DNA of 64,000 nucleotides from a bacterium (GTDB lineage: Bacteria; Zhuqueibacterota; Zhuqueibacteria; Residuimicrobiales; Krinioviventaceae). A model generated the notes under the pieces. That model was not told the DNA's origin. It ran no database searches and worked only from the letters and a program-made list of their open reading frames with translations. Position 1 is the stretch's first letter. Each line of letters opens with the position of its first letter. This document shows positions 43,947 through 55,351 of the stretch, piece by piece. The stretch covers positions 62,001 to 126,000 of the forward strand of contig JAKQIY010000044.1 of assembly GCA_029561455.1 (NCBI GenBank), given 5' to 3'. The position numbers and the translations under genes are program-made.

Positions 43947-44639
43947 TTATACCGCAAACGTATTCAAATGGCTACTGTGAATGACCTGGCCGATGATGCG
44001 AACCTCTTCGGCGCTTTTGATAATGGGGCGGTACTTGGGCGAGGCGGAAAACAACATGACCTTGTCGCCTTCGCGCTGAAAGATTTTCACCAGGATATCG
44101 CCGTTATCATCGGTGGCAATTACAATGGCACCGTTCTTGAGCGTGTGGGCATCGGAGACCGGCGCGACGAACAGCAGATCGCCATCGTTAATGCCGGCAA
44201 GCTGCATACTATCACCGCGGGCGCGCACCGTAAACCGCACCGAAGGATGCACTCCCGGAAAGATTTTCGTATAACTGACAATATTCTCGGAATATGATGC
44301 CTGCCCCAAACCTGCCCCCGCTTTCACCTCGTAATGCGGCACCTCGCGGATATAATTCTCGCTCGGCATTCTGGTGGTTTTATAACCATCGAGAGGCGGC
44401 ACGTTATCGGTAGATGGTAACTCGCGGGAAAAAATGATGTTTTCGCCCTCGATACGCACACTGCGGCCTGTGCCCTCGGCAATTTTACGGAGCGTGGAAC
44501 GTTGCACATTCGTCGATTGGCCGGAGAGAATTTTCTTCAGCCCCGGCGTAGTGAGACCGGTTTTAGCGGCCAGTTCCTCGATGCTGAGCAGATCTTCATC
44601 GAGGATCTTTTGGATTTCAATAGCTATGGTAGTTTTCAT
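43947..44639 (-). CDS. S24/LexA-type phage repressor
   Basis: The ATG at 44639 (230 residues) is preferred over an upstream TTG at 44654. Residues ~1-65 form a helix-turn-helix (IEELAAKTGLTTPGLKKILSG) and ~95-230 an S24 peptidase domain. The catalytic Ser lies in RGDSMQLAGI and the Lys in ILVKIFQ. Proteins of this kind repress phage promoters and cleave themselves when RecA is activated, so the island is probably induced by DNA damage. It is divergent from the exonuclease operon; the region between them carries a promoter with an overlapping inverted repeat. Confidence 0.92.
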   Translation of the reverse strand: MKTTIAIEIQKILDEDLLSIEELAAKTGLTTPGLKKILSGQSTNVQRSTLRKIAEGTGRSVRIEGENIIFSRELPSTDNVPPLDGYKTTRMPSENYIREVPHYEVKAGAGLGQASYSENIVSYTKIFPGVHPSVRFTVRARGDSMQLAGINDGDLLFVAPVSDAHTLKNGAIVIATDDNGDILVKIFQREGDKVMLFSASPKYRPIIKSAEEVRIIGQVIHSSHLNTFAV

Positions 44640-44707
44640 AATCCTAATATACAAAAATAAACATATAAAAACAACTATTAATTTTTATCAACAAATAAAA
44701 ATTCTTC

Positions 44708-44750
44708 TTGACTTTGTCAGAAATTAGTTTATATTTGTTTTATAACAAAT
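44708..44750 (+). promoter_or_regulatory. Rightward promoter with candidate repressor operator
   Basis: TTGACT (44708-44713) and TATATT (44730-44735) are spaced by 16 bases. An inverted repeat with ATTTGTT / AACAAAT arms (44733-44750) overlaps the -10 box, where a bound repressor would block transcription. A further AACAAAT copy lies at 44754-44760, as expected for cooperative binding. Confidence 0.5.
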
Positions 44751-44908
44751 CAAAACAAATAACAACTATAATTAACTATGATGAATAAAATCCCACAACC
44801 CTAACCCTTGCATTAATAACGTGAGTAATCGCTAACCGGAACACCGAAGGCAACGAAAATCACCACACTGCAAGATATAAAAATTCTCCACACCAGTCAA
44901 CATAAATC

Positions 44909-44937
44909 TTGACAACGGGGAAACGGGGATAATAATC
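44909..44937 (+). promoter_or_regulatory. Possible second promoter before the exonuclease gene
   Basis: TTGACA (44909-44914) with an ATAATC box 17 bases on (44932-44937), 20 bases before the start codon. The short distance makes it weak as a leadered promoter. Confidence 0.3.
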
Positions 44938-44957
44938 ATCATAAGAGAGGGGTATTT

Positions 44958-45920
44958 ATGAATTACATCAACACACACAACCTGGGCAGGGAACAATGGC
45001 TCGCCCTGCGGCGCGGCGGACTGGGCGGCTCGGATGTCGCCGCCGTATTGGGATTATCGCCATATCGTACCGCGCTGGATGTTTACCTGGAAAAAACCGG
45101 GGAAAAGCAGCCTGCTGCGGATAACCGGCGTATGCAGGCGGGACGACTGTTGGAAGACACCGTCGCCAACTGGTGGGCGCTGCACCATGGCGCCCGCATC
45201 CGTCGTGATCACAAAATCCGCTTTCATCCCCGTTACAAATGCCTGTTCGGCAACATCGACCGGCTCATCGTTGCCAATGACAAGCGAGGGCCCGGCGTGC
45301 TGGAAGTCAAAACCACCTCCGGGTACGTTTATAAACAATGGCAGGAAAGCGGATTGCCGCCGGACACCCATTGCCAGATCATGCACTATCTCAACGTTAC
45401 CGGGCATCGCTGGGGACGAGTCGCCATACTCGTGGACGGCTATGATCTGCACGACATTGCCGTCGAATACAACACCGCATTTATCCGGCAAATGACCGAA
45501 AGGCTGCTGGACTTTTGGCACAACAACATCGGCAAACATCAGCCGCCGCAGCCGGTCAACGAAAACGATTTAAAACAACTGTGGCCCAAAGCAGACGCCG
45601 ACAAAATCATCCAGGCAGACGCAACAGCCCTGCAAACCATCGACAAACTGGTCGATGTCACCGCCCGGCTTGCCGACCTATCCGATACCAAAAAAGAACT
45701 GGAACTGCAAATCAAACTGCTGCTCAAAGACGCAACAGTCCTGGCCGCCGGGGACACAACATTGGCAACCTGGAAACAGAACCGGGATGGAATGAAATTC
45801 GACATCAACAAATTCAGAACTGAACATCCGGCGTTATACCAGAACTATACGGAAATGAGTCCCGGCAGCAGGCGCTTTTTGCTAAAATGCGGGCAGGAAC
45901 AGAGCATAGAAAATAACTAA
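44958..45920 (+). CDS. YqaJ-type phage recombination exonuclease
   Basis: This 320-residue protein has the YqaJ/lambda-exonuclease-like fold: GGLGGSDVAAVLGLSPY near the N-terminus, Glu in GRLLEDTVANWW, Asp in FGNIDRLI and the E-x-K pair in VLEVKTTSGY form the metal site. These enzymes degrade one strand of linear duplex DNA to allow single-strand annealing. A C-terminal coiled coil (~215-250) follows. No Bet/RecT annealing partner is adjacent. It opens the rightward operon; AGAGAGGGG precedes the start. Confidence 0.9.
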   Translation: MNYINTHNLGREQWLALRRGGLGGSDVAAVLGLSPYRTALDVYLEKTGEKQPAADNRRMQAGRLLEDTVANWWALHHGARIRRDHKIRFHPRYKCLFGNIDRLIVANDKRGPGVLEVKTTSGYVYKQWQESGLPPDTHCQIMHYLNVTGHRWGRVAILVDGYDLHDIAVEYNTAFIRQMTERLLDFWHNNIGKHQPPQPVNENDLKQLWPKADADKIIQADATALQTIDKLVDVTARLADLSDTKKELELQIKLLLKDATVLAAGDTTLATWKQNRDGMKFDINKFRTEHPALYQNYTEMSPGSRRFLLKCGQEQSIENN

Positions 45921-45954
45921 CGTGAAACATAATAATATAAATATGGGGAAGACC

Positions 45955-46239
45955 ATGAAAATCATCAGACAAAATAACGGCGGATTATATTTCCGCCTCG
46001 AAAGAATGGATCGGCGCGTTTGCACCTATCGCACCTTTATACAAATCATCAAAGACCAGCCGCAATGCGTCTATCGTCCGGCGGAAATGGACGAGCGGCC
46101 GGGAGAAAGCGACAACCGCTGGTGCTGGGTACCGCCGCTGACCGTGCCCCTGTTCGAGCGGGCCAAAAAGCGATTTATCGACGATTACTTGGAAAGCGAC
46201 CGGATCGTGCGGGAAATTGCCTGTGGAATAGAGGCTTAA
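45955..46239 (+). CDS. Small hypothetical phage protein
   Basis: The ATG at 45955 (94 residues) follows GGGGAAG; an in-frame GTG at 45922 is less likely. Not recognised; rich in Arg, Trp and aromatic residues (RWCWVPPLTVPLFERAKKRF), no membrane segment. It lies between exonuclease and terminase small subunit with tight spacing, so it is part of the operon; possibly a DNA-handling accessory factor (guess). Confidence 0.7.
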   Translation: MKIIRQNNGGLYFRLERMDRRVCTYRTFIQIIKDQPQCVYRPAEMDERPGESDNRWCWVPPLTVPLFERAKKRFIDDYLESDRIVREIACGIEA

Positions 46240-46262
46240 ACAGGAAGGAAAGGGAAGAACCA

Positions 46263-46754
46263 ATGACACCGGATAAACAAACTCTCAACAAAGCCCGGCT
46301 GCTCAAGCGCATCGCCGAACTGTACCTGTACGAAAACCGCACCCAGACGGACATGGCCGCCACCCTCGGCGTCAGTCGCACGACTATCGGCAGGTACCTG
46401 GGTGAACTGCGCGACGCCTGGCAGAAATCCGCATTAATGGATTTTGACGAAGCCAGGAAGCGGGAACTGGCAAAAATTGAACAACTGGAGACGGAATACT
46501 GGGCCTCGTGGAAACAATCGCTAGGCGGGGAAGAACGAGAAGCGAATACGTCGTTGGCGGATAGCGAGGATTGTGAACAACGCAGAGAGCGGCAGGCCGC
46601 CGGGAATCCCCGTTATTTACAGGGCGTGCAGTGGTGCATCGACAAGCGTTGTGAAATACTGGGAATCAACGCCGCTAAAAAAGTAGAAAGCGGAGTACAA
46701 GTCACATTTTCCGAACTGGTGAAGGGAGTTTATGCAGATCACAGAGCAGGATAA
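46263..46754 (+). CDS. Terminase small subunit-like HTH protein
   Basis: The ATG at 46263 follows a purine-rich AAGGGAAG site; 163 residues. The N-terminal ~55 residues form a helix-turn-helix (TQTDMAATLGVSRTTIGRYL) like those of small terminases and resolvase/sigma-like proteins. A charged coiled coil (~60-85) and a C-terminal helix follow. The last 23 bases overlap the large terminase gene, the position expected for a small subunit that recognises the packaging site. The call rests on context and fold, not on a strong family signature. Confidence 0.7.
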   Translation: MTPDKQTLNKARLLKRIAELYLYENRTQTDMAATLGVSRTTIGRYLGELRDAWQKSALMDFDEARKRELAKIEQLETEYWASWKQSLGGEEREANTSLADSEDCEQRRERQAAGNPRYLQGVQWCIDKRCEILGINAAKKVESGVQVTFSELVKGVYADHRAG

Positions 46755-48207
46755 GGAACTGTTTGCCTCTTACAGCAGTGACTGGAACCGGTTTATCCGC
46801 GACATTTTGGGAATACGGCTGGACCGGCAGCAGCGCCGTATCATCCGCGCGGTGCAGGAAAACCGGCGGGTTTCGGTGCGTTCCGGGCACGCCAGGGGCA
46901 AGGATTTCACCGCGGCGGTGGCGTCGTTGTGCTTTTTGTACCTCCACTATCCCGCCAAAGTCATCAATACCGCGCCGACGCGGCGGCAGGTGCTGTCCAT
47001 TATGATGACAGAAATCGCCCGGCTGCACAAAAACGCGCGGCTGCCGCTGGGTGGACAGCTTACCTCTACACGCATCAAATTCCCCGGCGAGCCGGACTGG
47101 TTCCTGGAAGGCTTCAAGGCCGGGGATAAAGCGGTGGAAGCGTGGACCGGCTATCACAGTCCCAACATTATGGTGGTGGTTACCGAGGCCAGCGGCCTGG
47201 CGCAGGAGACTTTTGAGGCAATAGAGGGACTGCTCACCGGCAACTCGCGGCTGCTGTTGATATTCAACCCGGTGCGCACCGCCGGGGAAGCGTTCCAGAG
47301 CGCTAAAAGTCCCGCGTATACCAGGTTTCGGCTCAGCAGTCTGGATGCGGTGAATGTGCGGGCCAAACGTACGCTGATCCCCGGTCAGGTGGATTACACC
47401 TGGGTGGCGGAAAAAGTGGACAAGTGGTGCCGCATCATCAAAGCGCCGGATTGCGACCCGGGTTTATGTGATTTTTGCTTTGATGGATTATGGCGCCGGC
47501 CCAACGACCTGTTTCGCGTCAAAGTATTGGGCGAGTTTCCGCGTGAGGCCGAAGGCCAACTCATTCCGCTGGCCTGGGTGGAAGCGGCGCAGCAGCGCTG
47601 GGAGGCCTGGCGCACCCATAAAAAGCGTATCGGCTTTCTAAAACTGGGGGTGGACGTCGCCGGGATGGGCAGGGACAGTTCCTGCCTGGTGTGGCGGTAC
47701 GGACAAATCATCGAGCGGCTGGAAACATACAGCAAGGCGGGTCACATGCAGTTAGCCGGAATGATCCGCAACGAACTGCGCGTGGAAGAGGACTGCGCGT
47801 TTATCGACACCATCGGCGAGGGCGCGGGCATCTATGCGCGGCTGGTGGAACAAGAGTTGAACGTGGCCGGTGTGAAAGGCTCGGAAAGCGCGGAAGGATT
47901 GAGCGATGTAACCGGGGAACGCAGCTTTGCTAACATGCGCGCCTGGCTGCACTGGGCTCTGCGGGACGCCCTGGACCCTTCCCTGCATGGCGACCTGGCC
48001 CTGCCGCCGGATGATACTTTGACGCAGGAACTGACCGAGCCGCAGTATACCGTCCAGTCCAGCGGTAAGATCATCATCGAGGCAAAGGAGAATATCATAG
48101 CCAGGTTGGGGCGGTCGCCGGATCGGTTGGACGCGCTGTTGAATACCTTTTCGCCGCGTTCCGGGCGAGAATGGCTGAACACATCATGGATTGGGGAAGG
48201 GAGGTAG
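46732..48207 (+). CDS. terL: Phage terminase large subunit
   Basis: The protein has 491 residues. The ATPase domain has a Walker A variant GHARGKDF (~52-59) and an acidic Walker B-like strand NIMVVVTEASG. The C-terminal RNase H-like nuclease has Asp in GVDVAGMGRD (~307), FIDTIGEGAG (~361) and a final Asp in SPDRLDALL (~470). It powers and cuts DNA during capsid filling. An AGGGAG site lies before the ATG; it overlaps the small subunit gene. In an ordinary phage a portal gene would follow, but none does here. Confidence 0.93.
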   Translation: MQITEQDKELFASYSSDWNRFIRDILGIRLDRQQRRIIRAVQENRRVSVRSGHARGKDFTAAVASLCFLYLHYPAKVINTAPTRRQVLSIMMTEIARLHKNARLPLGGQLTSTRIKFPGEPDWFLEGFKAGDKAVEAWTGYHSPNIMVVVTEASGLAQETFEAIEGLLTGNSRLLLIFNPVRTAGEAFQSAKSPAYTRFRLSSLDAVNVRAKRTLIPGQVDYTWVAEKVDKWCRIIKAPDCDPGLCDFCFDGLWRRPNDLFRVKVLGEFPREAEGQLIPLAWVEAAQQRWEAWRTHKKRIGFLKLGVDVAGMGRDSSCLVWRYGQIIERLETYSKAGHMQLAGMIRNELRVEEDCAFIDTIGEGAGIYARLVEQELNVAGVKGSESAEGLSDVTGERSFANMRAWLHWALRDALDPSLHGDLALPPDDTLTQELTEPQYTVQSSGKIIIEAKENIIARLGRSPDRLDALLNTFSPRSGREWLNTSWIGEGR

Positions 48208-48209
48208 AA

Positions 48210-48392
48210 ATGCCGAAACGGGAAAGCACCAACAAACGTCACGAAACGCTGCGGCGCACGATATATGACCGGGCGAAGAAATTGTGGAATGCGGGGATTC
48301 GCGATTATGTCAAGCAGGCCTGCCTGGATATGTCGAAACAAACCGGCTATGCTGCGACGACGCTGGAAGATATCTATTACGGTCGGCACTAA
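48210..48392 (+). CDS. Small basic hypothetical protein
   Basis: The ATG at 48210 follows GGGAGG; 60 residues. Very basic N-terminal half (KRESTNKRHETLRRTIYDRAKK) and helical, suggesting nucleic-acid binding (possible small DNA-binding or transcription factor). It starts two bases after the large terminase stop and is closed by a terminator-like hairpin. Confidence 0.65.
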   Translation: MPKRESTNKRHETLRRTIYDRAKKLWNAGIRDYVKQACLDMSKQTGYAATTLEDIYYGRH

Positions 48393-48395
48393 AAG

Positions 48396-48436
48396 AAAAG
48401 ACCGCCTGAACAACCTTCAATTCGGGCGGCCTTTCC
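48396..48436 (+). terminator. Terminator-like hairpin closing the island's main operon
   Basis: CCGCCTGAA pairs with TTCGGGCGG (one G-T pair) around a ten-base loop, then CCTTT. It separates the terminase operon from the lysozyme. Confidence 0.55.
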
Positions 48437-48524
48437 GGAGGAGGGCATAAATGTAACTCTATTAAATTGAACGAGGGGATTTGTACGGGGTTCCATTTTT
48501 TTTAATTGCTTTTGGAGAAAAATT

Positions 48525-48938
48525 ATGAATTATGATAGGCTGTTTTGTTCTATAAAAAAGCACGAGGGCAAGAATAACCGCATGTACCGCGATGGTGAGG
48601 GGATATTGACTATTGGCTATGGGCATAATCTGGAAACCGGCGAGCTGCGCGATGAGGCGATAGAGCTGATCTTGCAGCATGATGTGGAAGCAGCGGAGCA
48701 GGCGGTGCGCAGCGAATTGCCGTATTTTGACGAGCTATCCGACCTGCGCCGGGAGACGCTGGTGGAGATGGTGTTCAACCTGGGACTACCCCGGTTTTTG
48801 GGATTTAAGAAAATGCTGGCGGCGCTGGAGGTGCGGGATTATGCCGCAGCCGCCCGGGAGATGCTGGACAGCAAATGGGCGCGGCAGGTGGGTAAACGTG
48901 CTAAAACGCTGGCCAGGCAGATGCGGAGGGGGGTGTAG
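48525..48938 (+). CDS. Phage lysozyme, GH24 type
   Basis: The protein has 137 residues. The T4-type catalytic set is visible: Glu in IKKHEG (~14), then YRDGEG and TIGYGHNLETG with the Thr. It cleaves the beta-1,4 MurNAc-GlcNAc bond of peptidoglycan, and has no signal peptide, so a holin or other export route would be required; none is nearby. GGAGAAA precedes the start. The TAG stop codon is formed by the first bases of a REP element (48935). Confidence 0.9.
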   Translation: MNYDRLFCSIKKHEGKNNRMYRDGEGILTIGYGHNLETGELRDEAIELILQHDVEAAEQAVRSELPYFDELSDLRRETLVEMVFNLGLPRFLGFKKMLAALEVRDYAAAAREMLDSKWARQVGKRAKTLARQMRRGV

Positions 48939-49005
48939 AGACAGGTCCATCAATCGTAGAGACAGGTCTATCAATCGTAGAGACAGGTCTGAGACCTGTC
49001 TCTAC
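48935..49005. repeat. REP block R1
   Basis: Two 21-nt units beginning GTAGAGACAGGTC followed by a 29-bp palindrome with GTAGAGACAGGTCT arms and a single central base. It lies exactly between the convergent lysozyme and transposase genes, supplying the lysozyme stop codon, and could end both transcripts. Confidence 0.92.
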
Positions 49006-49007
49006 AC

Positions 49008-49640
49008 CTATCCTGTTTCATTCAAATCATCTTTATGCCAATTAACAGGATTGTTTTTGATATATTCCCGGATTCTGCACAATTCATCATGATTGCGAAT
49101 AATATGATCATGAAATCGTGTTTGCCAGATTGAATTGGCGCACCCCGGATCCAATTTATTTATGCGCCGCGCCGAAAATGATTTTAATGCCCGAATAAAT
49201 TCAGATAATCCGTGGGTTGTGTTTTTTTTGTTTGTATTTGTTGTAGAGACAGGTCTATCTGTAGAGACAGGTCCATCAATCGTAGAGACAGGTCCATCAA
49301 TCGTAGAGACAGGTCTGAGACCTGTCTCTACAAATTTATCCCCAACCCCAATATTATTGGGATGGTCATTATCAATAATACAGATTATGCCATGAATATG
49401 ATTTGGCATAACGATAAATTCATCCAATACCAGATTGGGATAATGGTTTGGCAGATCGTACCAGCAATCCCACACAATTTTACCGGCAGCATTGATTGAT
49501 AATTGGTTGTTTATTATTTCCCCAAATATATTGATCCTGTTTTTGGAGCATACGGTAAAAAAATAATATCCCGGGGAGGAATAATCCCAATTTTTCAACC
49601 TAGTTGATTCAATACGGTATTTGTTGCGGTATAATGTCAT
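49008..49640 (-). CDS. REP-associated tyrosine transposase (RAYT)
   Basis: This 210-residue HUH-type (Y1, IS200-like TnpA-REP family) protein has MPNHIHG with the metal-binding His pair (81, 83) and a C-terminal YIKNNPVNW with catalytic Tyr193. Such enzymes cut and join single-stranded DNA at REP hairpins. Residues ~104-135 are encoded by a REP block in the reading frame (VETGLRPVST and STIDGPV repeats) placed in the variable linker between the HUH core and the helical LSEFIRALKSF segment, so the core motifs are intact. Four more copies of the same element lie within 6 kb. No second transposase gene or IS ends were seen. Confidence 0.92.
   Translation of the reverse strand: MTLYRNKYRIESTRLKNWDYSSPGYYFFTVCSKNRINIFGEIINNQLSINAAGKIVWDCWYDLPNHYPNLVLDEFIVMPNHIHGIICIIDNDHPNNIGVGDKFVETGLRPVSTIDGPVSTIDGPVSTDRPVSTTNTNKKNTTHGLSEFIRALKSFSARRINKLDPGCANSIWQTRFHDHIIRNHDELCRIREYIKNNPVNWHKDDLNETG
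49243..49331. repeat. REP block R2, inside the transposase gene
   Basis: One 18-nt unit, two 21-nt units and the palindrome, total 89 bp. It is fully translated as part of the transposase. Confidence 0.92.
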
Positions 49641-50207
49641 TGGATTAATTCCCCATTTTGGGTAAACATTTTTTTTTTTTTGTGTTGTTTTGTTTTGTAG
49701 AGACAGGTCTGTTTTGGTAGAGACAGGTCTGAGACCTGTCTCTACGCGAATAATATTAATTTCATATAATACAACCCAGCCCGGGAAAACCCCATATCAG
49801 ATTTTGATTAATGATATAATTAAAATAATTTCACAGCAATATACAAGAAAAAAATGTGCTATTAATAAAATATTCAAGAATCCGCCTTCCCAATTTAACA
49901 GATTGTGATTGTAATATATTTAGCAATAAGGTGCGCGCCCTGCTGCACGAGCGGCGTATACCTACAATACAAGTCCAAATTTTTTGATTTAATCCCGGAT
50001 TGTTTATATGGGCCGTGTTCGGGTTTTTAATTTTATTTCCAATTAAATGAAATGTTAGTATTACCTGTTTTTGTTTTAGAGATACAAAATATTGGGCGTT
50101 ATAATTGACAGCTACCTGGGTAATTGCATCGACTCTGAATTGCATTACGCCTGATCCAGTTTCAAAAATGTGTGGTAAAAAACAGTAAAATATTAAATGG
50201 AGGGCGT
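49641..50207. other. Intergenic region with REP block R3 and a relic
   Basis: AT-rich. REP block at 49697-49745. At 49928-49956 a 29-base relic of a sorting-domain gene (encoding KVRALLHERR) remains, nearly the same as 51494-51522; the rest is decayed. Confidence 0.7.
49697..49745. repeat. REP block R3
   Basis: One 20-nt unit plus the 29-bp palindrome, 57 bases before the transposase start codon on its upstream side. Confidence 0.92.
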
Positions 50208-51658
50208 ATGAAGAGCCAATTTATATGTGCGGGATGTTTATTCGTTATCATGTTTTTATTGATTCCTGTGTATGGGCAACAGCAATGGCCAATGGTCAAT
50301 GCCTGCCGTGAACGGACTTCGTGGGCTGCGGAGGAAGATGTACTTTTTCCGCCCCTTAGTAAAGATTTAGAGTATGTCGGTAGAAAATATAGTCACACGA
50401 ATTCCCTACGTGGTACGATCATAACCTGGTTGTTAGTATTAATTATGATCATGCTATTATTATCTCCTGGAATACAGAGACCACGGATACATTATGGGCA
50501 GAAAATTTTACAGATATATCGGGAAATATTGATTTTTCCCCGGCGCAAAACGATTCAATGGTATTTGTCGGGGGGCAAAACGGCCTGGCGTTGTATGCCC
50601 TGAGCCGGACGACCGGGCAACTTTTATGGTCAAAACCTTGTGGTAGCTTATTAGGACGCAATCCCATTCCCGATGGAGACCGATTATATATAGTCAAGGA
50701 CAGTTTGCTCTGCCTGAATGGCCATAATGGTGCCACGATCTGGAGTTATCCTTTTACAGGTACAGCAACTCCGGCAGTGGATGATAGTTATTGCTATTTA
50801 TGTGGTAAAAACAGAATCAGAGCTTTTCATAAAATGACCGGTGCATTACTATGGGAACGCTATAATAATATTGGTAGTTATGCAACATTAATGGTCGATG
50901 AGACTAGAGTTTATTCAGTCTCGCAAGATTCCCTGGTGGCGAGGAACAAACAAACCGGCGCAATCGAATGGGGATACCAGGTGGCCGGAGCCGAGTTTCC
51001 AGACCTGGTAGTTGGTGGCGCTGCAGTTTGCGATAGTTTTGTTTGTTTTATAATATGGGAAAACATTGATGGATTTGGGCAGCTATATACGCTCAATAAA
51101 GCGGATGGTTCTTTACGCTGGAATCATACATTCCCGCAATCGGGGTTATATGCACCGACTATCGCCAACAATGTAGTCTATATCACAACATGGAGGGAGA
51201 TGGAATTATGGGGATTTGATCTGAAAAACGGAGATAGCCTTTTTTATGATAATTCGCAGTCTTATAATGGACAAATCATTGTCGCCAATCATACTCTTTA
51301 TGCGGGTACACAACGTGGAGTAATAACTTTTGTCAGTGCTGAAAACAAAGTAGATAATAAAAAAACAGCCATGGCGCACTCTTTTGTACAATGGCAAAAC
51401 TATCCCAATCCCTTTAATCCTGCGACAACTATAACTTTTGAATTGCCGGATCGGGCCAATGTGGAAGTTGTTATTTTTGATGTAACCGGTCGAAAGGTGC
51501 GAACCCTGCTGCACGAGCGGCGCGGCAGCGGCGAGCACATAATAAACTGGGACGGCCGCGATGATGCCGGTGTGCCGGTCAGCAGCGGCGTGTACCTGTG
51601 CAAATTGAGCACAGATAAAGGCTATAGCGAAACAAAAAAGATGACGCTGGTAAAATAA
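50208..51658 (+). pseudogene. Frameshifted PQQ-type beta-propeller protein with sorting domain
   Basis: Two overlapping frames together align end to end with the intact gene at 61261-62712. The start (ATG 50208 after GGAGGG) gives a signal peptide and QQQWPMVNACRERTSWAAEE; near 50408-50412 the frame must change by one base to continue into WYDHNLVV and then blades with GGQNGLALYAL, LLWSK, TIWSY, LLWER, IEWGY and LRWNH. A single missing base explains it, either a real mutation or a sequencing error. The sorting domain (YPNPFNPATTITF) ends at 51658. If functional, it would be a secreted eight-bladed PQQ-like propeller of unknown ligand. Confidence 0.85.
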
Positions 51659-51693
51659 TTAAACCGGAAAAACATCCGGCGCGATCGATAGCA

Positions 51694-51758
51694 GTAGAGA
51701 CAGGTCTATCTGTAGAGACAGGTCTGGTTGTAGAGACAGGTCTGAGACCTGTCTCTAC
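51694..51758. repeat. REP block R4
   Basis: Two 18-nt units and the palindrome, 35 bases after the stop codon of the pseudogene; likely to shape its transcript end. Confidence 0.92.
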
Positions 51759-51901
51759 CAGATTGCCCTTTATTTGGAAACAAAGAAATACACAAATTTT
51801 GTTAAAATAATGTTGCATAATCGGGATAAATTATTATATTTCTATAATGATGGGATTAAATCCTGAGTATAATATCATAATCATTCTTTTGGGGAGGATT
51901 T

Positions 51902-54900
51902 ATGAACAAGTCCTTGATATTTATTGCATTCATTAGCAGTCTGCTTTTAATTCATTTAAATTTAATTGCCCAGACAGAGCGGCTTGTAGACGATGACAGC
52001 CGTTACGGCGCTATTGCCAGGGATTATTTACAAAAACCCGGCAAATATGATGGGCAGAACTCGATACAGGGTTTGGGGGAGGGAACCTGGGATTTAAAGT
52101 TTACCGAGAGGAATATTTCCGGGGATACTAGCTTTGGACGTAGTGTGGCTTGTGTTGGGGACGTAAATGGCGACGGATATAATGATGTACTTGTTGGAGC
52201 ATGTAGTTACAATGATTATTTCGGCAGAGCCTATTTATATTATGGTGGTGCAGTCATGGATACTGTTGCTGATCTCGTTATGACTGGTGAAATACCTGAA
52301 GGACAATTTGGTATTAGTGTCGCTGGAGCAGGGGATGTGAATAAGGATGGTTTTGCTGATATGGTAATAACGACTGATATAGCATTAACGACTGATTGGG
52401 CTAGATTTGTTTATATTTATTATGGTGGGCCGAGCCTGGATAACATTGCTGATTTGGTATTAACTCAAGAAGAAGAACCATATTTTGGTACTCAGGTCGC
52501 TGGAGCTGGGGATGTAAATGGTGATGGATTTGATGATGTGATGGTTGCGGCTATGGAGTATGATAATGAAACAGGGCATGTTTTTTTCTATTTTGGTAGC
52601 GTTACAATGGACAGTTCGGTAGACTTGGTTCTCTCCGGGGATACTACCCAAGATGGTTACGCTACAATTATTAATGGAGTTGGTGATGTGAATAATGATG
52701 GGTATGCTGATGTAATGGTTGGAGCTTATTTGATGAATAATAGTACAGGGCGTGCATATTTATATTATGGCGGACCTGATATGGATGCTTCTGCAGATGT
52801 GATATTCAATGGAAAACATGAAAAAGATTCTTACGGTGGGAGTGTTACCGGAATTGGTGATATAAATGAGGATGGGTATGATGATATACTGGTTGGCGCT
52901 TGTGGATATAATATGAATAATGGACAAGTTTATTTATATTATGGGGGGACATCCATGGATACAACGGCTGATATTATCCTTTCTGGAGAAACGGGGCATT
53001 ATAATTTTGGCGCTAATGTCGCTGGCGCAGGAGATGTGAACAATGATGGTTTTGCTGATATATTAGTCGGATATCGTTTTAAAGACGAAATTAATCTTTA
53101 TTTGGGTGGGAATTTCATTGATAACGTACCCAACGCCGTTTTTTATGGAATTACAATCGGTAGGGGTTTTGGAAGATGTACTGAAAACAGTCATGATTTG
53201 AACAATGACGGTTTTGCAGATGTTTTGACCGGTTCTTTTTCATATTATAGTAGGGGTCATGTTGATATATTTTATGGTAGTTTAGTAATTGATACTCAAG
53301 TAGACTGTATTCTCAAGGGTGAAGCTGTAAAAAATGAATTCGGTTATTGTGTCACAGGCGCCGGAGATGTTAATGGTGACGGGTATAAAGATGTGCTGAT
53401 AGGAGCTTGGGCATATAACGGTAATGCCGGCCGGGCATACTTGTATTATGGTGGACAAAGTATGGATACTGTTGCTGATGTTATTATAACAGGTGACAAA
53501 AGTGGTAATAAATTTGGTTTTAGTGTGTCGGGAGCAGGTGACGTAAATGGAGATGGATTTGATGATATATTGGTTGGAGCGCCTCTCTGGAGTGAGGAGT
53601 ATGATCAAACCGGACGTGTGTACTTGTATTACGGGGGTGCACAAATGGATTCTAGTGCAGATATTATTATGACAGGTGATAAATGTGAATATAGTGAATG
53701 TGAACGTTATCAGGATGGTTTTGGTTACACTCTTGCAGGAGCAGGAGATGTTAATGGTGATGGATATGCAGATTTTCTTGTAGGTAACAGTATTTTTAGT
53801 GATTTTGGAACCAAGGTTGTTCTGTTTTATGGTGGGCCAGATAAGGATAATATTGCTGATTTTATTTTAACAGGTGAAAGAAAAGACAGCGAGTATGGAT
53901 ATGAGAGTATTGCCGGAGTAGGAGATGTGAATGGAGATGGATTTGATGATATTTTAATTGGGGCAAAAGAATATGGGTATGTTGATAATATAAAAGGTTA
54001 TGGTGAGTTTGTCATGTATGGTCGGGCATATCTTTATTATGGAAGTGGAACATTTGATTCGGTTGCGGATGTTATTTTTACCGGGCAAACACCATGGGAG
54101 CAATTTGGCAGTCGGGTTGCCGGGGCAGGTGATGTGAATAATGATGGTTATGCGGATTTACTGGTAAGATCTGCCAGATTACCTGCGGTTTTTTTATTTT
54201 TAGGCGGTACCGAAATGGATAATATAGCTGATGTGACCTTGCCCGGTGAACAATATGGAGGAAATTCACACTTTGGATTCAGTATGACAGGTGTTGGGGA
54301 TGTGAATTATGATTGCTATGATGATGTTCTGGTAAGCGCCTATGGTACTGAAACTTCATCAGGTCAGTTATTGCTTTATTATGGCAACGTAGTTATGGAT
54401 AGTATTCCGGATGAAATAATTTATGGAGAAAAGGATAATAAATTAGGGTATAGTGTTGCAAGGACAGGTGATGTTAATGGAGATGGTAGTAGTGATTTTA
54501 TTGTAGGCGCCCCGATGATTGGCAGGTATTATTATAGAGAGCAAAATAATGATTTTGGAAAAGTTACGGAAATAGGTGATTATTACAACGGTGCGGCTTA
54601 TCTCTATTTCGGCAGCAGGTCTACCGGAATAGCCGAACCTGGCACGACCCCGGTGGGTTTTCCAAAAACAGTACAATTGCAGAACAACTATCCCAATCCT
54701 TTCAATCCCGCAACAACTATAACTTTTGAACTAACTGAATGGGCCAATGTGGAAATTGCTATTTTTGATATTACCGGCAGGACTGTGAAAACCCTGCTGC
54801 ACGAGCGGCGCGGCAACGGCGAGCATAATATTAGCTGGGACGGCCGCGATGACGCCGGTCTACCGGTGAGCAGCGGTGTGTACCTGTGCAAATTAAGCAC

Positions 54901-54946
54901 GGATAGAGGCTATACCGAGACGAAAAAGATGACGTTGGTGAAATAG
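51902..54946 (+). CDS. Secreted FG-GAP protein with 14 repeats and sorting domain
   Basis: The protein has 1014 residues: signal peptide (~1-24), then 14 FG-GAP repeats, each with a GDVN-x-DG-(Y/F)-x-D-(V/I)-LVG calcium-loop signature spaced by ~60 residues (~70-900). It ends with a FlgD-like sorting domain (NYPNPFNPATTITF, ~930-1014). Fourteen is twice the seven blades of an integrin-type propeller, so two tandem propellers are likely. The repeats are AT-rich, while the last ~170 bases are GC-rich and almost the same as in the 51658 gene, suggesting the sorting-domain end was acquired by recombination. Confidence 0.9.
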   Translation: MNKSLIFIAFISSLLLIHLNLIAQTERLVDDDSRYGAIARDYLQKPGKYDGQNSIQGLGEGTWDLKFTERNISGDTSFGRSVACVGDVNGDGYNDVLVGACSYNDYFGRAYLYYGGAVMDTVADLVMTGEIPEGQFGISVAGAGDVNKDGFADMVITTDIALTTDWARFVYIYYGGPSLDNIADLVLTQEEEPYFGTQVAGAGDVNGDGFDDVMVAAMEYDNETGHVFFYFGSVTMDSSVDLVLSGDTTQDGYATIINGVGDVNNDGYADVMVGAYLMNNSTGRAYLYYGGPDMDASADVIFNGKHEKDSYGGSVTGIGDINEDGYDDILVGACGYNMNNGQVYLYYGGTSMDTTADIILSGETGHYNFGANVAGAGDVNNDGFADILVGYRFKDEINLYLGGNFIDNVPNAVFYGITIGRGFGRCTENSHDLNNDGFADVLTGSFSYYSRGHVDIFYGSLVIDTQVDCILKGEAVKNEFGYCVTGAGDVNGDGYKDVLIGAWAYNGNAGRAYLYYGGQSMDTVADVIITGDKSGNKFGFSVSGAGDVNGDGFDDILVGAPLWSEEYDQTGRVYLYYGGAQMDSSADIIMTGDKCEYSECERYQDGFGYTLAGAGDVNGDGYADFLVGNSIFSDFGTKVVLFYGGPDKDNIADFILTGERKDSEYGYESIAGVGDVNGDGFDDILIGAKEYGYVDNIKGYGEFVMYGRAYLYYGSGTFDSVADVIFTGQTPWEQFGSRVAGAGDVNNDGYADLLVRSARLPAVFLFLGGTEMDNIADVTLPGEQYGGNSHFGFSMTGVGDVNYDCYDDVLVSAYGTETSSGQLLLYYGNVVMDSIPDEIIYGEKDNKLGYSVARTGDVNGDGSSDFIVGAPMIGRYYYREQNNDFGKVTEIGDYYNGAAYLYFGSRSTGIAEPGTTPVGFPKTVQLQNNYPNPFNPATTITFELTEWANVEIAIFDITGRTVKTLLHERRGNGEHNISWDGRDDAGLPVSSGVYLCKLSTDRGYTETKKMTLVK

Positions 54947-55351
54947 AATTGCCGGACACATGTACGGTTTTATCGGGCGCACGGGTAAATATCCGGTGCG
55001 ATCAGATTCCGGCCGAATGGCGCGAACCCTGTTGCACAGGCGTGATTAAGGTGAACGCATTTTTTTTATTTTTTGACGTCGAGACAGGTCTATTTTTAGA
55101 AACAGGTTCATCTGTAGAGACAGGTCTGAGACCTGTCTCTACAGATAGACCTTTCTCTACTTTAATAATTACCTGAAACAACCTGTCCAAATAAAAAAAG
55201 CTGTTTTATTGAAAAAAAATTTGTATAATAAGGTTGATTTACTTAATCGTTTGAGTAGATTGTAATATATTTTCAGTATTAACAATATCTTAGATATTTT
55301 TTAGTGAGCGTAAATAATTCATTTACTATTCATTTGTTAACAGGAGTTCCC
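54947..55351. other. Intergenic region with REP block R5 and a relic
   Basis: Holds the REP block at 55078-55160 and, at 55017-55045, a short relic matching the sorting-domain gene ends (codes ARTLLHRR). The remainder is AT-rich and should contain the esterase promoter. Confidence 0.65.
55078..55160. repeat. REP block R5 with units on both sides
   Basis: Two degenerate 18-nt units, the intact 29-bp palindrome at 55114-55142, then an inverted degenerate unit to 55160. It is the only block with satellite units on both sides. Confidence 0.85.

Follow-up and report, generated by a model that had tools for sequence, protein, structure and literature searches.

Introduction

The TnpAREP proteins of subclass 2.4, to which the RAYT group 4 of Bertels et al. 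(2017) maps, were defined by Quentin et al. (2018) by the NH[IFV]H, WQ and YIxNNP motifs and described together with their long or double-foot REPs, which carry GT[AG]G at the 5' end and C[TC]AC at the 3' end (PMC6006769). REP insertions of this subclass predominate within the tnpAREP genes, located between the HuH and the Y motifs with the reading frame kept, and they probably have little effect on activity (PMC6006769). REPs inside other genes had already been reported in 2013 (PMC3733652). In the TnpAREP of E. coli, the GTAG foot is contacted by the region around strand β1 and β4 (PMC8266576); our literature search found no biochemistry on subclass 2.4 or on the enzyme studied here.

The gene that we describe shares with subclass 2.4 / RAYT group 4 the NH[IFV]H, WQ and YIxNNP motifs, the variable insertion between HUH and Tyr, the double-foot GTAG...CTAC REPs and the presence of in-frame REPs in the gene; it differs from the described members in its tandem array of half-arms, closing in one full palindrome, and in the confinement of its REP family to 6.2 kb. 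With the E. coli TnpAREP (4ER8, subclass 2.2), it has in common the fold and the association with GTAG-foot REPs, whereas the REPs published for E. coli are imperfect, bulged palindromes, in-gene REPs have not been reported for subclass 2.2, and our protein, whose linker is long and variable, is without the C-terminal extension. Palindromic repeats that are in frame in protein genes are also known as the Rickettsia palindromic elements and the intragenic GTAG/CGTC REPs (PMC3733652), but these hit unrelated genes, while the host gene here encodes the enzyme that is presumed to act on the repeat.

The gene itself is ordinary for subclass 2.4, and an in-gene REP is a published habit; an earlier reading of this DNA, made from the sequence only, had held that REPs normally just flank RAYT genes, which is wrong for this subclass, where in-gene insertions predominate (PMC6006769). 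What the present analysis adds to the published main texts is the count across phyla, the excess of REPs in the linker over the flanks, the comparison with empty sites and, tentatively, a coupling between residue 10 of the enzyme and base 5 of the REP foot.

Results

The transposase gene and its family

The gene is located at positions 49008–49640 (minus strand) of the window, i.e. the whole 64,000-nucleotide stretch of DNA that was analysed, and is an intact ORF of 210 residues that encodes a TnpAREP (RAYT) protein, HUH Y1 transposase-like. The HIH motif occupies residues 81–83 (49392–49400, minus strand, as computed from the ORF) and the catalytic tyrosine, Tyr193, is located in the YIKNNP motif (49062–49064, minus strand); HIH and Tyr193 are invariant in alignments of 22 and of 42 sequences. 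The protein matches Y1_Tnp (Pfam, E = 4.3e-07) and aligns with the NCBIfam model of REP-associated tyrosine transposases, NF047646, in two stretches that are split by the linker, with 61.3 bits against a curated cut-off of 80 bits; with the IS200/IS605 transposase TnpA model, NF033573, it reaches 13.3 bits, under the 55-bit cut-off. The best PDB fold match of the modelled protein is 4ER8, a RAYT bound to a REP hairpin. The core of the AlphaFold model is confident, while residues ~90–143, situated between the strand 81–88 and the helix 145–163, have low pLDDT; on the evidence of the model, this linker loop (residues ~90–140) is probably disordered.

All of the motifs of subclass 2.4 are present (NHIH at 80–83, WQ at 172–173, YIKNNP at 193–198), as are its other traits: an insertion that follows the HUH strand, ahead of the next helix, and varies in length and sequence, double-foot REPs GTAGAGACAGGTC...GACCTGTCTCTAC inside the gene and at both of its ends, and a REP within the gene that leaves the frame undisturbed. 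Judged from its sequence, the enzyme matches TnpAREP subclass 2.4, i.e. RAYT group 4, an assignment that is made by motifs and REP type.

Other RAYT-like genes or fragments occur in the same genome at G000:C67:127704-128288 (L004), C51:6910-7964 and C29:148217-148453; a scan of this genome located no copy of GTAGAGACAGGTC near any of the three.

The REP clusters in and around the gene

The in-gene REP block (49243–49331, minus strand, approximately residues 104–133) is 89 bp long and contains four half-sites GTAGAGACAGGTC that are read on the plus strand, at 49243, 49261, 49282 and 49303, spaced by 18, 21 and 21 bp. The last of these pairs with an inverted half-site at 49319–49331, and the two form the 29-bp double-foot palindrome GTAGAGACAGGTCTGAGACCTGTCTCTAC (49303–49331), which closes the block. 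We have rejected the description of the block as several full REPs: it is a tandem array of half-arms plus one full palindrome. The block is translated in frame as VETGLRPVSTIDGPVSTIDGPVSTDRPVST (VETGLRPVST-IDGPVST-IDGPVST-DRPVST), between HIH and Tyr193. The sequence-only reading had proposed a REP that is read through within its own RAYT gene, inserted in the variable stretch that links the HUH motif to the C-terminal helical part, and our analysis bears this out: the ORF is intact, the catalytic residues are kept and the insertion coincides with the low-confidence loop of the model.

The half-site GTAGAGACAGGTC occurs in 18 copies in the 5.85-Mb genome, all of them within 6.2 kb of the window (48935–55142), grouped in five clusters; its reversed control occurs nowhere in the whole genome, and the clustering is therefore far beyond chance. 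All five clusters close with the identical 29-nt palindrome and have uniform polarity. Two bracket the gene closely: the 3' flanking cluster (48935–49005), with three direct half-sites and one inverted, begins 2 nt past the stop codon, and the 5' flanking cluster (49697–49745) is located 57 bp upstream of the start codon. Two more are 2–6 kb distant, namely a cluster at 51694–51758, with the same architecture of three direct half-sites and one inverted, and a palindrome at 55114–55142, with decayed half-sites beside it (~55080–55165). The location inside the gene that had been emphasised earlier is confirmed, with the correction that further clusters lie just outside both gene ends and at the two distal positions. 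The GTAGAGACAGGTC repeats are very probably the cognate double-foot REPs of the enzyme.

The in-gene block and the 3' cluster are identical at 72 of 73 bases (49260–49332 and 48934–49006), which indicates that one of them was probably copied from the other. Such near-identity also makes a misjoin conceivable, but we consider an assembly artefact, or a decayed pseudogene, extremely improbable: frame and catalytic residues are preserved on either side of the block, ordinary reads exceed the 73-bp repeat in length, and the same architecture recurs in independent assemblies from about two dozen phyla.

The 3' cluster adjoins an ORF for a phage-type lysozyme/endolysin (48525–48938; Phage_lysozyme, 2.6e-15), which takes its TAG stop codon from the first GTAG of the cluster. 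This ORF belongs to a prophage-like stretch next to the RAYT gene (43947–48938), along with a CI/UmuD-like repressor, a RecE-like exonuclease and a 491-aa phrog_5902 protein.

The linker in homologous genes

We have collected homologues from the order of the window, from its phylum (searched with a linker-free query) and from a genome-wide contig collection, and have compared 97 distinct full-length genes, counting a palindrome when at least 10 net pairs are formed in the linker between HUH and WQ. A linker palindrome is present in 62 of the 97 (49 of 70 from the genome-wide contigs, 7 of 15 from the own-genome and order searches, 6 of 12 from the linker-free query), in about two dozen phyla; codon-shuffled linkers contain one in 0.3–1.7% of controls (~1%). 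The view of the in-gene REP as exceptional, and of the linker insertion as perhaps unique among aligned homologues, has to be given up: the insertion recurs in many phyla, and such REPs were published in 2018 (PMC6006769).

The peptides encoded by the linkers vary (VETGLRPVST, VGAGFKPAPT, VGTHGRASL, RDAINRVST and others), and the palindromes, which are unlike between lineages but still self-complementary, have the GTAG foot in common. The linker REPs are read in two of the three frames (37 feet in one, 9 in the other), while the remaining one would place TAG in frame; the use of two frames speaks against descent from one inherited insertion. The recurrence of V-x-x-G-x-x-P-x-x-T forms could suggest that the linker peptide is the conserved feature, with the palindromic DNA as a by-product of coding. 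This we find very improbable: the peptides of homologues are wholly different, with only the DNA palindrome and its GTAG foot in common, identical half-sites exist outside genes, and linkers without such a peptide exist in L037 and L071; the use of two frames, together with these empty linkers, already contradicts it.

The near relatives are informative about the history of the insertion. L037, among the nearest relatives and the sister of the window on the tree, has GTAGAGACAGG REPs around its gene only, and its linker is short and plain. L042 has the identical 29-nt palindrome, as the reverse complement of GTAGAGACAGGTCTGAGACCTGTCTCTAC, at 2656–2684, in another loop of the surface, at about residue 45, and a variant of it in the linker, while the linker of L043 contains one full and one decayed copy, with another copy at the 3' end of the ORF. 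Peptide and REP go together in these linkers, absent from L037 and present in L042 and L043; the case that would have spoken against the earlier reading, the same peptide in a homologue that has no REPs, is not seen among them. These patterns favour recurrent, recent insertion over one inherited event; a single ancestral insertion is unlikely, given the two frames, the differing sequences, the empty relatives and the second site in L042. The palindrome in the second loop of L042 is, moreover, a natural test of how far insertions are tolerated.

Palindromes are denser in the linker (3.15 per kb) than in the adjacent 150-bp flanks (1.54 and 1.40 per kb), the distant flanks (0.15–0.22 per kb) or the catalytic core (0.13–0.39 per kb). 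The difference between the linker (65 palindromes in 20.6 kb) and the nearest 150-bp flanks (42 in 28.6 kb) has p ~1e-4. Of the complete genes, 37 have a palindrome in the linker but none in the near flanks, and 8 show the reverse. Local REP density was considered as the whole explanation and is insufficient alone, since the linker exceeds its adjacent flanks. A scan of 89 genes that preceded the 97-gene survey gave its own set of 62 in-gene palindromes; in 21 of these 62, 12-mers recur in the flanks of the same gene, whereas the average sharing with other loci is 2.6%.

Residue 10 of the enzyme and base 5 of the REP foot

The correspondence between enzyme and REP was examined on a tree calculated after removal of the tested columns, with 135 columns ranked. 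Residue 10 and base 5 of the REP foot go together in 54 of 55 rows, with Arg/Lys accompanying G and Ile/Val/Thr accompanying A; residue 10 ranks first of the 135 columns, and seven of eight independent contrasts agree, with none opposed. When supported branches only are used, three of four contrasts agree, too few for significance. The coupling, which was picked after many columns had been viewed, is suggestive and would fit an enzyme that reads these REPs. A second candidate coupling, of base 7 with residues 174–175, was set aside as weaker and non-specific, with several columns performing equally.

Probable tolerated insertion and possible self-recognition

We consider it likely that the locus is a RAYT group 4 gene with locally spread cognate REPs, one cluster of which is tolerated in frame in the disordered linker; across the homologues, in-gene palindromes most likely arose when the enzyme's own REP inserted repeatedly into a disordered loop that tolerates it. 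The enzyme would recognise the GTAGAGACAGGTC REP, and these REPs have spread only locally, into the five clusters of the 6.2-kb region; one cluster would have entered the linker that joins the HUH strand to the DNA-binding helix and tolerates insertions which keep the frame, either by enzyme-made insertion or by recombination with a neighbouring cluster. The extra half-arms probably arose by tandem slippage in units of 18 and 21 bp, both multiples of three, and the protein is expected to be still active. The roughly twofold density of linker palindromes over the adjacent flanks weighs against this explanation, as mere tolerance does not predict it; the NF047646 score below the curated cut-off also counts against it.

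The in-gene REP could have a regulatory role. Selection could keep it as a self-binding site, to which the enzyme would attach either in its own gene, when replication makes this single-stranded, or in the mRNA hairpin, limiting expression or marking the gene; the linker excess, the predicted mRNA hairpin of the block (−39.2 kcal/mol, z −4.5) and the lineage-specific palindromes that remain complementary are in favour of this. The strength of the hairpin follows from the repeat itself, as any such palindrome would give one, and whole-unit replacement would preserve palindromes without selection; in addition, linker palindromes are lacking in about one third of the homologues, the near relative L037 among them, and the position, frame and number of the REPs all vary. 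Selection for self-binding at this gene is an unlikely reading, and we hold it to be similarly doubtful that the in-gene REPs of subclass 2.4 are maintained as cis elements, by which the enzyme would recognise its own gene or transcript and limit expression or tie the gene to its REP family. If true, such a cis element would explain both the linker excess over the flanks and the replacement of REPs in step with enzyme specificity.

In-gene REPs physically couple each enzyme with one copy of the target presumed for it, and homologue surveys can therefore read specificity directly, e.g. from residue 10 and foot base 5. They also supply natural enzyme/target pairs with which one could ask if RAYTs are still able to mobilise REPs and if the enzyme is regulated by its in-gene copies.

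Low-complexity linkers have also been observed, in L012, L050 and L023 (with repeats such as NDNNDNNDN, GGNGGGN and GAHAHAPT), located beside REPs or replacing them; these repeats suggest that the linker may tolerate tandem expansion generally.
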